Shown: positions 6,632 to 22,271 of the stretch, piece by piece | Layout: each line of letters opens with the position of its first letter | Numbering within the stretch: position 1 is the stretch's first letter | Source of the DNA: a virus | Reading direction: 5' to 3' (one strand) | DNA: 22,321 bases | Virus record (IMG/VR): IMGVR_UViG_3300020009_000048 | Coordinates: 1-22,321 of that record | The notes under the pieces: model-generated | What the model was told of the DNA's origin: nothing | Databases searched by the model: none | Seen by the model: only the letters and a program-made list of their open reading frames with translations | Translations under genes and position numbers: made by a program

Positions 6632-6904
6632 ATGGCAGCGTACAGGGCAATTCGAGGCGGGCCGGTGATCATCGCCGGAATGTCACGCGAGGTCAAGGAG
6701 GGCGAGATTTTCGATGACCTGAATCCGGGCGACATCGAGCTGCTGACGGCGCACGGCTGGATTGAAGAGGCGCGCGGCGAGAAATCCAAGCCGGAGAGCG
6801 CCGAGGCCAAGCGCCGGGCCGACGAAACGCGCGTGACCGACAAGGACGACGACGACGACGACAAGACCATGACCACCAAGAGCGTGCAGGGCCGGAAAGG
6901 GTAG
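6632..6904 (+). CDS. Small hypothetical head-region protein with acidic tail
   Basis: This is a 90-residue protein after the major capsid gene, with an excellent AAAGGAG (6619-6625). The N-terminal half contains EGEIFDDLNPGDIELLTAHG then WIEEA, and the C-terminal half is highly charged with a run of six aspartates coded by repeated GAC codons (DKDDDDDDK). No domain is recognised. Position suggests a head accessory role, but nothing shows it. Its core resembles that of the next gene product (an EGE motif, then a leucine-containing segment, then a G-aromatic-I/V-E ending), so the two may be distant paralogues. Confidence 0.7.
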   Translation: MAAYRAIRGGPVIIAGMSREVKEGEIFDDLNPGDIELLTAHGWIEEARGEKSKPESAEAKRRADETRVTDKDDDDDDKTMTTKSVQGRKG

Positions 6905-6906
6905 CC

Positions 6907-7134
6907 ATGTTTCGAGCATTGCAGACGATTGAACTTGCGGTGGACGGTCGCGACCTGTCACTGGTGGAGGGCGAACCCGTGGAGCTGACCGAAATCGAGG
7001 GCACGGCGCTGGCCTCCGGCGGCTATGTGGAGCGCGTGGAAGAGCACGCGCAAACCGAATTGCCGTGGGAGCAAGAGGACCCGCGCACAATCGATTCCGG
7101 CGATTCGGGCGTACAGAGGCCCGCACAGGGATGA
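6907..7134 (+). CDS. Small hypothetical protein, similar in layout to its upstream neighbour
   Basis: This 75-residue protein starts 2 bases after the previous stop and ends in an ATGA overlap with the next gene, so it is probably translated as part of the same coupled series. Residues 15-45 (LSLVEGEPVELTEIEGTALA and then GGYVERVEE) resemble residues 21-48 of the preceding protein. The rest is acidic and probably disordered. Function is unknown; a small head or head-tail accessory protein is a guess from position only. Confidence 0.65.
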   Translation: MFRALQTIELAVDGRDLSLVEGEPVELTEIEGTALASGGYVERVEEHAQTELPWEQEDPRTIDSGDSGVQRPAQG

Positions 7135-16248: not shown

Positions 16249-17663
16249 ATCCGCTGAGTGTTTATTGGTCGCCGTGGCACCGGCGCCCGCAGGATTATGA
16301 TTACTTTACGGCGCTGCAGCCGGCCGTCGTGAAAATCATGAACGGCGGTCCGCCGGATTACGCCTGGGTGCGCGGCAATCTGCCCGGCGCCCTGGTGATC
16401 GCCCGCGACCACGCCATGAGCGAACAAAAGGAGGACATGCTGCGCGACCCGGCCGGCACGGGGCGGCGCCATGCGATGGAGTGGGACCAGAAGGTTAGTA
16501 CGCTGGGCTTTGACCGGGCGAATACGCTGGTACTGGGGATCAACGAGCCAGCGGTGTGGGATGCGGGCGTGATCCCGGCGCTGGTCAATTACACGATTGC
16601 CTTTCTGGACGAATGCGATGCGCTGGGGCTGCGCGGCGGGGCGCTGCAGCTCAGCGTGGGCTGGCCGGCGAATTCCGGCGGGGAATCGCCGCCAAACTGG
16701 GCGCCCTATGCCGGCGTGGAGGCGGCGATCCGGCGCGGCCAGCATGCGCTGGTGCTGCACGAGTATTGGGCCACGGGCGGGCCGGGCGACGGCTGGGGCT
16801 GGTATGCCGGGCGCTTCATGAAATGCCCGTGGGATGTGCCGATTGTGATCGGCGAATGCGGGCTGGACATGGGCGTGGTGCAGGACCCGGCCACGCTGCC
16901 CGGCAGCCGCGGCTGGCAGGGCAACGTATCGGCCATGACCTTTGGGGCGCAGAGTGGCGACTATGTACGGCGCTGCCAGACGGACCGGCGCTTCTTTGCC
17001 GCCACAACTTTTACAACCGACTACCAGAGCGGCGAATGGGAACCATTCGACACCGAGCCGGCGCGCCATGAGCTGGTCGCGCAGGCCAACAGTCTGGCAC
17101 CGGCGGTCTGGTATGGCGGCGGGGCGGGGCCAGGTCCGACGCCGGAGCCACCGGACCCTGGGCAGCCCGTGCCCATGCCCGGCAAGATTGTACACCCGCT
17201 GCCGGCGGGCAGCTACAGGATCACCCAGCATTTCAACCAGGGCGTGACCAATCCGCGCGGCCATGAGGGCACCGACTTCGGCGCCGGGCTGGGCACGCCG
17301 GTGCGCAGCATCGCCGACGGCGTGGTGGCGTGGGTGGACGTGGATCCTTCCTATGGAAATTACATTCGGGTGTACCATGAGGCGCTGGGCGTGTATTCGT
17401 TCTATGCGCACCTGTCCAGCCAGAGCGTGGGCCAGGGCGCCACGGTGCAGGCCGGCGCCACAATCGGCAAGGTAGGCAGCACCGGCAATTCGACCGGGGC
17501 GCACCTGCATCTGGAGATCCGCATTGCCAACGCGGCCGGCAATTACAGCCGCGTGGCGCCCAAAGCAAATGGCCGCTGCGATCCCGAAACCTGGGCGGCG
17601 CTGCTGGGCCTGAGCCTGAGCACGGGCGATTACTCGGCAATCCTGACGCCTGGCGGCGCATAA
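16245..17663 (+). CDS. Two-domain endolysin: glycosidase-like domain plus M23 peptidase
   Basis: The 472-residue product begins at the ATG of an ATGA overlap with the holin-like gene. Residues 1 to about 290 look like a TIM-barrel glycoside hydrolase: VLGINEPAVW (E101 as candidate acid/base), LHEYWATGG, and PIVIGECGLD (E204 as candidate nucleophile). A proline-rich linker (about 295-315) leads to an M23/LytM domain at about 316-430. It has GHEGTDFGAG (H340, D344), FYAHLSS (H389) and GAHLHLEI (H420, H422), the usual zinc and catalytic residues. There is no signal peptide, so export depends on the holin. The peptidase would cut peptide cross-links and the glycosidase probably glycan; the second activity is inferred from the clan-like motifs. 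A short conserved tail follows. Confidence 0.9.
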   Translation: MNPLSVYWSPWHRRPQDYDYFTALQPAVVKIMNGGPPDYAWVRGNLPGALVIARDHAMSEQKEDMLRDPAGTGRRHAMEWDQKVSTLGFDRANTLVLGINEPAVWDAGVIPALVNYTIAFLDECDALGLRGGALQLSVGWPANSGGESPPNWAPYAGVEAAIRRGQHALVLHEYWATGGPGDGWGWYAGRFMKCPWDVPIVIGECGLDMGVVQDPATLPGSRGWQGNVSAMTFGAQSGDYVRRCQTDRRFFAATTFTTDYQSGEWEPFDTEPARHELVAQANSLAPAVWYGGGAGPGPTPEPPDPGQPVPMPGKIVHPLPAGSYRITQHFNQGVTNPRGHEGTDFGAGLGTPVRSIADGVVAWVDVDPSYGNYIRVYHEALGVYSFYAHLSSQSVGQGATVQAGATIGKVGSTGNSTGAHLHLEIRIANAAGNYSRVAPKANGRCDPETWAALLGLSLSTGDYSAILTPGGA

Positions 17664-18017: not shown

Positions 18018-18083
18018 CCGTTTCCCTACGCACCTTAACAACCGAAGCAGTAAAGGTGAAAGCGACAGTTGGCGCCGCCGCTA

Positions 18084-18128
18084 TGGTGACCCACCTAGGA
18101 CTTGAACCTAGAACCCAATGATTAAGAG
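18084..18128 (-). other. attP: Phage attachment core: 3' half of tRNA-Lys(CTT)
   Basis: Read on the minus strand this is the 3' part of a tRNA: anticodon loop CTCTTAA (18128-18122), stem arm TCATT (18121-18117), five-base variable region, T stem-loop CTAGG/TTCAAGT/CCTAG (18111-18095), acceptor arm GTGGGTC (18094-18088), discriminator A and an encoded CCA (18087-18084). The 5' side is missing: CGAGC in place of a strand complementary to TCATT. Such 3'-half copies next to an integrase are the sequence shared between attP and a tRNA attB; integration rebuilds the host gene. The integrase 3' end is 33 bases away. Confidence 0.85.
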
Positions 18129-18170
18129 GCTCGCGGCAGACTTAAACGGATGACTGTAAATCATTGGGTT
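18112..18170. repeat. 12-bp inverted repeat spanning the attachment region
   Basis: AACCCAATGATT (18112-18123) is repeated in inverse at 18159-18170, 35 bases apart. The left copy is part of the tRNA anticodon arm; the right copy overlaps the integrase stop codon. Within the right copy, ATGA-CTGTAAA-TCAT (18150-18164) mimics a second anticodon arm with a 7-base loop, facing the first. Confidence 0.7.
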
Positions 18171-19093
18171 GACGAATTGCCCTTGCCTTGCAGCCGCTCC
18201 ATGGCGCTGTTGTAGGCGTTGCGGACGGCTGGCGCGAGCGTGAATGCGTAGTACATTTGCGTGACCTGGGTGCTGGTGTGACCCATTGCGGCGGCAATGT
18301 CGGAGAGATCGGCGCCGTTGTTGCGCATGGCCATGGCGAAGCCGTGGCGGAAAGCGTGGGCGCTGAATTGCTGAATCCCGGCCTGTTGGCAGCGCGCTTT
18401 CAGCATACTGCGCACACCTTCGGGTGTAAAGCGGGGGCCGGCATGGTAGAGCGGGCCACGCGAGGCCAGCAGCAGCGCCGGCGCATTGCTGGGCCGAGTG
18501 TAGAGATAGGCCAGCAAATCATGGCGAATATCAATCGTAGTGGGAACCATGCGCGGTTTGGCGCCCTTGCCACGTCGCACAAAGATTTCCAGCCGCTGCA
18601 CGTCAATGTCCGCGACCTGCAGCGCGCACAATTCCCCAAGCCGTAAACCCGAAAAGTAGAGCAACCGAAGAATCAAACGGTCCCGCTGGTCAATCCAGCG
18701 GTCCCCATTGATCGCGCCCAGGATAGCGCGCAAATCAGCGTATGCAACATAACGGGGGCGCTCTTTGGGGATGCGCGGCGGCTTGACCCAATGCACCGGA
18801 TTTTGTTCACGCGTGATAAAGCGGCGGCGCTCTGCGAAGTTGAGCACGGCCGCCAGCGCACGGTAGCGGGCATGCACCGTACGCGGTTTGAGACCAAGTC
18901 GCTGCTGGGCGGCAATAAAGGATTCGAGCACGCTTTCGGTGGGGAGGAGATCGGGGACGCTGAACCGTTCCCGCCACGCCTGGAAGATGCGCAGTTGTGA
19001 CGCATACCAGGCGATGGTGGCGGCGGAAAGGCCAGCGGCGGTGACTGACACCTGGTGCAGGTGCACCAGGGCGGTAAAGCTGTTTTGTTGCAT
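18161..19093 (-). CDS. int: Tyrosine recombinase integrase
   Basis: The 310-residue protein catalyses site-specific recombination between attP and the tRNA attB. An N-terminal SAM-like core-binding domain (about 8-100) has the pattern TIAWYASQLRIFQAWRERF. The catalytic domain has R151 (FSGLRLGELCAL), K176 (RRGKGAKPR), H246 and R249 (HAFRHGF), H272 (MGHTSTQ) and a tyrosine nucleophile at Y281 or Y282 (MYYAFT). All expected residues are present, so it should be active. The start at 19093 has GGAG about 6 bases upstream; the longer open frame above it runs through a dyad and a G7 run and is unlikely. The last codons overlap the attachment-region inverted repeat, so integrase and attP form one cassette. 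No excisionase was recognised nearby. Confidence 0.95.
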   Translation of the reverse strand: MQQNSFTALVHLHQVSVTAAGLSAATIAWYASQLRIFQAWRERFSVPDLLPTESVLESFIAAQQRLGLKPRTVHARYRALAAVLNFAERRRFITREQNPVHWVKPPRIPKERPRYVAYADLRAILGAINGDRWIDQRDRLILRLLYFSGLRLGELCALQVADIDVQRLEIFVRRGKGAKPRMVPTTIDIRHDLLAYLYTRPSNAPALLLASRGPLYHAGPRFTPEGVRSMLKARCQQAGIQQFSAHAFRHGFAMAMRNNGADLSDIAAAMGHTSTQVTQMYYAFTLAPAVRNAYNSAMERLQGKGNSSTQ

Positions 19094-21192: not shown

Positions 21193-21558
21193 ATGCCACA
21201 ATCAGCAAAGCGGCCTTGCGCAGCAACGGGATGCGCGGCACTGGTGGCACGCCCGGACCGCTATTGTGCGGTGCACCGTAAGGAAAAGCGGGCGGCAATT
21301 GATCGGGGGCGGCTTTCCCCTTCTAAGCGTGGCTATGGGTGGGCCTGGCAGCGGCTGCGTTCCCATGTGCTACTGATGGAACCATTGTGCAGAGAATGCG
21401 GGGCGCATGGGCGTGTGGTGGCCGCCACCGACGTGGACCACATCACACCCAAGAGCCAGGGCGGAACGGATGACTTGAGCAACCTGCAAGCGCTCTGCCA
21501 TTCGTGTCACAGCGCCAAAACCATGCGCGAGATCAACGAAGCGAGAATCATTGGATGA
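21193..21558 (+). CDS. HNH endonuclease of the terminase-associated type
   Basis: The 121-residue protein has an N-terminal C-x5-C and C-x2-H zinc site (C9, C14, C25, H28) and a C-terminal HNH core: CRECG (near 69-73), VDHITPKSQGG, LSNLQALCHSCHSAKT. The DH-N-H catalytic residues and CxxC zinc pairs are all present. Small HNH proteins like this typically lie next to the terminase genes, and some help terminase cut DNA at the packaging site. Here the terminase begins at the other end of the window, which fits a circular or permuted genome. The start is the ATG at 21193 after a weak ribosome site. The stop overlaps the next start. Confidence 0.92.
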   Translation: MPQSAKRPCAATGCAALVARPDRYCAVHRKEKRAAIDRGRLSPSKRGYGWAWQRLRSHVLLMEPLCRECGAHGRVVAATDVDHITPKSQGGTDDLSNLQALCHSCHSAKTMREINEARIIG

Positions 21559-22271
21559 TGGTTAAAACCTGTGAGAGATGCGGCGCGGAGTTTGCACCCA
21601 AAACGCAATGGCAGCGCTTTTGTACAACAAATTGCCGGCTGGCCGTTCTAAGAAAACATTTGCAGAAAACGTGTCCGCAATGTGGCATATCATTTGAGAC
21701 AAGGCGCCTTGAACAATTGTATTGTGGAAGGGGTTGCGCCAGAAGAGCGGAAGTCGCAGCAAAGTATGAGGCAGGGCTGCTTACGCCGAAACGAATCGCT
21801 ACTTGCCCTCACTGTGGTACACCGAGCAAAGGCGCTCTAGCGTGTGCCGATTGCAGGCAAATGGTTGAAGCTGAACGCAATAAGCGTTATTGCAATGACT
21901 GTGGTGCGATTACAACGCGTTGGAAGTGGTACTGCGCAGCCTGTGCGCTGAAGCACAAGAAAGACGGAGCCATACCGAATCATTTCAATGCACGGGCTAG
22001 GCATTTGCTTCGCAAAGTATGGGGCGATGCATGGGGGGGCTTCTATGAGCCGCTCTCAAGTGGGGCGATTAGAGAGAGGTACAGGCAGCAGCATGCCCCT
22101 TGCGCGATTTGCGCTGATGCAATTGACTACGGGGCTAAGGCACCCGACCCCATGGCCCTGTCACTCGATCACATTGTCGCGCTTGCCAATGGTGGAACGC
22201 ACTACGAAGATAACATCCAACCAGCGCATTTCATTTGCAATTCGTACAAAGGTGCGAAGAGACAGGCATAG
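21555..22271 (+). CDS. HNH endonuclease with four tandem zinc-ribbon repeats
   Basis: The 238-residue protein starts at the ATG at 21555, in an ATGA overlap with the preceding HNH gene; a second ATG follows directly. Residues 1-130 hold four zinc-ribbon-like units with paired cysteines (C6/C9/C23/C27, C40/C43/C57/C61, C84/C87/C97/C100, C113/C116/C127/C130). Residues about 181-238 form an HNH core: CAIC (C183, C186), LSLDHIVALANGG (D205, H206), N220, and a final AHFICNSYKG (H225, C228). The multiple ribbons suggest DNA recognition by several fingers. Codon composition looks less G+C-rich than in the gene before, so it may be a later insertion, either homing or packaging-related. Confidence 0.88.
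   Translation: MMVKTCERCGAEFAPKTQWQRFCTTNCRLAVLRKHLQKTCPQCGISFETRRLEQLYCGRGCARRAEVAAKYEAGLLTPKRIATCPHCGTPSKGALACADCRQMVEAERNKRYCNDCGAITTRWKWYCAACALKHKKDGAIPNHFNARARHLLRKVWGDAWGGFYEPLSSGAIRERYRQQHAPCAICADAIDYGAKAPDPMALSLDHIVALANGGTHYEDNIQPAHFICNSYKGAKRQA

Follow-up and report, generated by a model that had tools for sequence, protein, structure and literature searches.

The question raised by this locus is whether a fragment of a tRNA gene carried by an environmental phage is the attachment site (attP) of that phage and which host it points to. The DNA analyzed here (the window) is a viral record of 22,321 bp, and a sequence-only reading of it had proposed a 45-bp tRNA-Lys(CTT) 3' half as attP core, with the corresponding attB in a host tRNA-Lys(CTT) gene. 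Three features of the window are needed at the outset:

18084..18128, minus strand: attP core, tRNA-Lys(CTT) 3' half (from the sequence; 44/45 identical to locus L088, identical in contig L002)
18122..18128, minus strand: anticodon loop CTCTTAA, presumed 7-bp overlap (crossover) segment, at the left end of identity
18161..19093, minus strand: tyrosine integrase gene (int), about 310 amino acids from the ATG at 19093, XerD-like (PF00589, PHROG, PDB)

Read on the minus strand from 18128 to 18084, the 45 bp (CTCTTAATCATTGGGTTCTAGGTTCAAGTCCTAGGTGGGTCACCA) correspond without irregularity to positions 32-76 of a tRNA-Lys(CTT), with the anticodon CTT at positions 34-36. The half is composed of the 7-nt anticodon loop (CTCTTAA), the 5-nt 3' strand of the anticodon stem (TCATT), a 5-nt variable loop (GGGTT), a perfectly paired T stem (CTAGG and CCTAG) enclosing a 7-nt T loop (TTCAAGT), a 7-nt acceptor strand (GTGGGTC), the discriminator A and the terminal CCA. 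The earlier claim of such a half at this position, with complete T arm, acceptor 3' strand, encoded CCA and a break at the anticodon loop, was confirmed, and the strand, which had been left unstated, is the minus strand. ARAGORN detected no tRNA gene in the whole 22,321-bp record, indicating that the 3' half is present alone, and a search of Rfam around the attP site gave matches at chance level only.

The gene next to the half encodes a product that matches PF00589 with an E value of 9.3e-30 and the PHROG integrase family with an E value of 4.7e-45, as well as XerC-like and XerD entries in the PDB (4a8e, 1a0p). Residues 24-281 of the query align with residues 22-278 of E. coli XerD, nearly end to end, and with this nearly equal N-terminal offset no extra N-terminal domain is evident from the alignment. 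The stop codon of int is located 32 bp upstream of the tRNA half, and both are found on the minus strand in the same direction. The window also contains genes typical for tailed phages, namely those for TerL, portal, head-tail connectors, major tail protein, tape measure and an M23 peptidase. The integrase and early genes are located on one side of the half and the M23/tail module, which ends at 17663, on the other, an order also found in L002, a second IMG/VR contig whose main aligned blocks share 78-83% identity with the window. Three genes for HNH endonucleases are present as well (1610-2290, 21193-21558 and 21504-22271), one of them directly between the genes for TerL and portal.

In L002 the 45 bp are unchanged and identity breaks at the same base, the bases preceding C32 being different apart from one C. 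The left end of identity falls at CTCTTAA in comparisons with the host gene described below and also with L002 and with two further relatives, L011 and L012; the latter two carry a different Lys(CTT) half, also starting at C32, beside related integrases (32-33% amino acid identity over the alignment). The left core arm in the window attP is GAGC, a mismatch to the TGA arm of the tRNA. Further relatives were gathered by an integrase-profile search, and 14 members of the integrase family were examined, comprising the window, a contig from a Caldilineales genome and 12 further viral contigs. In all 14 a tRNA 3' half is located downstream of int and is broken at or next to the anticodon loop. The distance between int and the T arm of the half is 52-180 bp in family members and 626 bp in L051. 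The halves belong to tRNA-Lys(CTT) in six cases, to tRNA-Gln(CTG) in seven and to tRNA-His(GTG) in one. Because the window and L002, both of the Lys type, were grouped in the phylogenetic tree with the Gln-type contigs L049-L054 in a clade with support of 99/99, the target tRNA appears, as judged from these sequences, to have been switched within the integrase family, with the carried half changing along with the target. Insertion of such prophages at another locus had been named beforehand as an observation that would speak against the proposed attachment site; it was encountered in part and is harmless, as the close integrase relatives that use tRNA-Gln(CTG) each carry the matching Gln half. 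None of 249 genomes of the class contained the Gln half of contigs L015 and L016.

In the search for a host, an exact 37-mer of the half was absent from 84,980 genomes, and a degenerate tRNA-Lys scan gave 7 matches, with Caldilineaceae among a few lineages. An order-level set of 46 genomes was assembled around one matched MAG, and the order label Caldilineales was taken from the Caldilineaceae title of this central MAG. The best intact tRNA-Lys(CTT) gene was found in Caldilineales (Chloroflexota) at G664:C131 (locus L088), with 44/45 positions identical to the phage half, and the runner-up in genome G670 of the same order with 39/42. The match to G664 spans exactly 18084-18128, ends at C32 and at CCA and has an E value of 6.5e-16 against this 4.5-kb contig; together with the unchanged half in L002, this greatly exceeds what chance would give. 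When the 5' half of the G664 gene was joined in silico to the phage 3' half, ARAGORN recognized a complete, foldable tRNA-Lys(CTT), the sole difference being a G28-U42 wobble. The anticodon stem of the G664 gene is AGTGA/TCACT, in agreement with the xxTGA/TCATT-like stem predicted earlier. Thus, the layout, the sharp ends of the match to an intact host tRNA gene and the shared arrangement in 14 family members support attP with an attB in tRNA-Lys(CTT). The expectation that the half would link the phage directly to its host held for the order; as the exact sequence, including an intact tRNA-Lys(CTT) with this exact 3' half, occurred in no genome searched, the host is resolved to the order and not to the species. 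It is likely, not proven, on these sequence matches that the host is a member of the Caldilineales (Chloroflexota).

Further searches gave no match to the half within 3 mismatches in a class-level sample of 396 genomes, nor in 198 Actinomycetota and 198 Bacteroidota genomes, these being the phyla to which Microbacteriaceae and Ignavibacteria matches of the scan belong. A Microbacteriaceae tRNA fragment with 38/45 identical positions was set aside because ARAGORN sees no gene there and the intact gene in that genome differs; the absence of any match within 3 mismatches from the 198 Actinomycetota genomes weakens this candidate further. In the Microbacteriaceae MAG contig L009, positions 6874-6920 form a tRNA-Lys(CTT)-like 3' half that lacks a 5' half; an intact tRNA-Lys(CTT) is located 1.9 kb away.

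The genomes searched contained no prophage of the window phage itself. No integrase relatives at E <= 1e-40 were found in 301 genomes of the phylum, and a later search of the order Caldilineales itself revealed relatives that are at most 40% identical. One of them (39%), at G666:C180, has a Lys(CTT) 3' half immediately downstream that lacks its 5' half, so that for this relative integration at tRNA-Lys(CTT) is seen in a chromosome, with one junction only. Genomes G288 and G364 of the same order contain prophages with TerL and integrase genes that are located next to sequences of tRNA-Gln or tRNA-His.

Two elements with intact tRNA-Lys(CTT) genes at both ends, in the Caldilineales genomes G670 and G123, were considered as direct proof of attB use and were rejected, since their integrases form a separate clade and are located on the other side of the tRNA; they show only that tRNA-Lys(CTT) is an integration hotspot. 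The element in G670 (L085, G670:C2:33000-48500) is 10.8 kb long and is located with its own integrase gene between two intact tRNA-Lys(CTT) copies. The 20.9-kb island in G123 (L086-L087, G123:C24:336500-362000) is bounded by an 82-bp repeat that includes the whole tRNA-Lys(CTT), and contains an integrase gene together with large helicase-like and DNA-methylase-like genes (read from open reading frames only); it is possibly a defence island. In genome G342, a tRNA-Lys(CTT) 3' half accompanied by the stub of a truncated integrase (L090, G342:C366) shares about 257 bp at 95% identity with a locus where an intact tRNA is followed by an integrase gene (L089, G342:C19), and from sequence this pair resembles the remnant of an integration, with the break again at the anticodon loop.

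An attR would likewise show a displaced tRNA 3' half next to int, as in G666, and the half in the window might accordingly be a prophage end (attR or attL) on a contig cut from a host chromosome. Such an origin is very improbable, as phage genes flank the half on both sides in an order shared with L002 and no full tRNA is present, which argues for attP, and as the half is followed by an element on the P' side (described below) that likewise follows it in the other attP sites and is absent from the chromosomal junction in G666. The related viral contig L055, in which this element is lacking, was likewise considered as a prophage junction, and this was dropped because apparent phage genes flank its half as well. 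As tRNA genes are common in phages and also occur there as fragments, the half could be what remains of a tRNA gene, encoded or captured by the phage, that has decayed and plays no part in integration. This is the least credible of the alternatives: the window and L002 share all 45 bases, whereas the sequence surrounding the half differs by about 17-22%, and the position after int and the break at or next to the anticodon loop recur in all 14 family members.

A larger share of doubt concerns the host. The half could be an attP core of a phage whose host lies outside the Caldilineales, the 44/45 match then reflecting the similarity of tRNA-Lys genes in a lineage that has not been sampled; the exact match occurs in no genome searched, and the mismatch-tolerant search of other phyla covered samples only. 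Such a host is nevertheless unlikely, considering that the 44/45 match, the integrase relatives and the TerL relatives all come from one order, that the half of L055 is identical to the Caldilineales tRNA-Lys half in G666, and that no match came from the sampled genomes of two other phyla. We thus favor, with a probability of roughly 0.93, the reading that the 45 bp are the attP core and that the adjacent integrase recombines it with a host tRNA-Lys(CTT) gene, the host most likely belonging to the Caldilineales.

According to this preferred reading, the integrase would bind the anticodon-stem sequence of the core and would probably, by analogy with known anticodon-loop integrases, cleave at both edges of the 7-bp segment that forms the anticodon loop, and attP would recombine with the host tRNA-Lys(CTT) gene (attB). 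The host 5' half and the phage 3' half would then form an intact tRNA-Lys(CTT) under the host promoter at one prophage end, and the displaced host 3' half would mark the other end, next to int. What the sequences show is the anatomy of the site, its exact boundaries, a foldable tRNA restored in silico and the recurrence of the arrangement throughout the integrase family; integration by the window phage itself, its exact host and the cleavage positions are inferred. The mechanism is ordinary and well known: in anticodon-loop integration the 7-bp loop is the overlap, the stem provides the inverted core sites and the tRNA is rebuilt under the host promoter (PMC8371274), and the classes of tRNA integration sites defined by Williams in 2002 include an anticodon-loop class (summarised in PMC8371274). 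As in this class, identity in the window begins at the anticodon loop and a 7-bp loop is located between stem arms; a tRNA 3' segment reaching to the gene end, an adjacent integrase and a restored tRNA (computed) are all found. The class of this attP is thus a known one, and what is new is the phage group, with its likely Caldilineales host.

Mycobacteriophage Int-Y attP sites contain 30-45 bp of a tRNA 3' half as common core, such as the 43-bp core of Boilgate from tRNA-Lys-TTT (PMC10865867). The window resembles them in the tyrosine integrase located by attP, in a core starting from the anticodon loop and in a functional tRNA rebuilt at one junction, and differs from them in the host phylum and in the isoacceptor, which here is CTT. 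Mycobacteriophage Int-Y integrases also possess an arm-binding domain with flanking arm sites, whereas the window integrase shows no evident additional N-terminal domain. It is similar to XerC/XerD (PDB 4a8e, 1a0p) in its two-domain size, full-length alignment and short inverted arms around a small spacer; unlike these, it is encoded by a phage beside attP and its target is a tRNA gene and not dif. In tRNA-dependent lysogeny, a core of about 10 bp is combined with a phage tRNA gene of the same isotype, whereas the window has a 45-bp tRNA-restoring core and no tRNA gene.

Unlike the anticodon-loop class, the window has an additional inverted TGA-N7-TCA site at the stop codon of int. This site and an element on the P' side of the core are as follows:

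18148..18170, plus strand: second, inverted core-like site GGATGA-CTGTAAA-TCATTGGGTT, overlapping the int stop codon
18030..18042, minus strand: conserved P'-side element GTTGTTAAGGTGC, 10-13 of 13 bases kept in 12 of 14 family members
18050-18058, plus strand: inverted partial copy GTAAAGGTG of the P'-side element (from the sequence)

The right arm of the second site pairs with the tRNA half as a perfect inverted repeat of 12 bp, and the plan of the site, TGA-N7-TCA, is that of the tRNA core in inverted orientation with another spacer. TGA-N7-TCA occurs near the int stop in eight of the 14 family members against 0.15 expected, and in six it overlaps the stop codon. The figure is indicative because the test used the loci in which the motif had already been noticed and because close relatives are among the eight, which represent about five independent lineages. 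When spacers of 0-15 were compared, a spacer of 7 alone gave more than one locus, and of equal-sized control intervals six located upstream contained none and four located downstream at most one each. The spacer varies between relatives and the inner arms are kept; read in antisense, the spacer resembles an anticodon loop (YTNNNRA) in four of the eight. The P'-side element GTTGTTAAGGTGC is kept whatever the target tRNA and is missing at the chromosomal junction in G666, as expected of a phage-borne P' element; it is missing also in L055, though L055 looks like an attP. An arm or accessory site is one possible role of GTTGTTAAGGTGC, which together with the second site may constitute accessory sites of attP. 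We tentatively suggest, as a possibility that we consider rather doubtful, that XerD-like integrases of this family, in which an arm-binding domain appears to be lacking, use the second TGA-N7-TCA site and GTTGTTAAGGTGC in place of arm sites, the second site binding integrase without recombining with the tRNA core (the spacer differs) and setting the architecture or direction of attP or regulating int.

Full-text searches of a collection of papers found no reports on prophages or phage/tRNA links in the order or family of Caldilineales. The analysis connects this order with an anonymous phage from the environment and with about a dozen viral contigs whose integrases are related, and it turns the tRNA half into a testable prediction of the host. 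The att sites and integrases could become integration tools for Caldilineales bacteria. The inverted second core site, which might be the only part to surprise a specialist, poses a small and well-defined question, namely how simple tyrosine integrases control attP.
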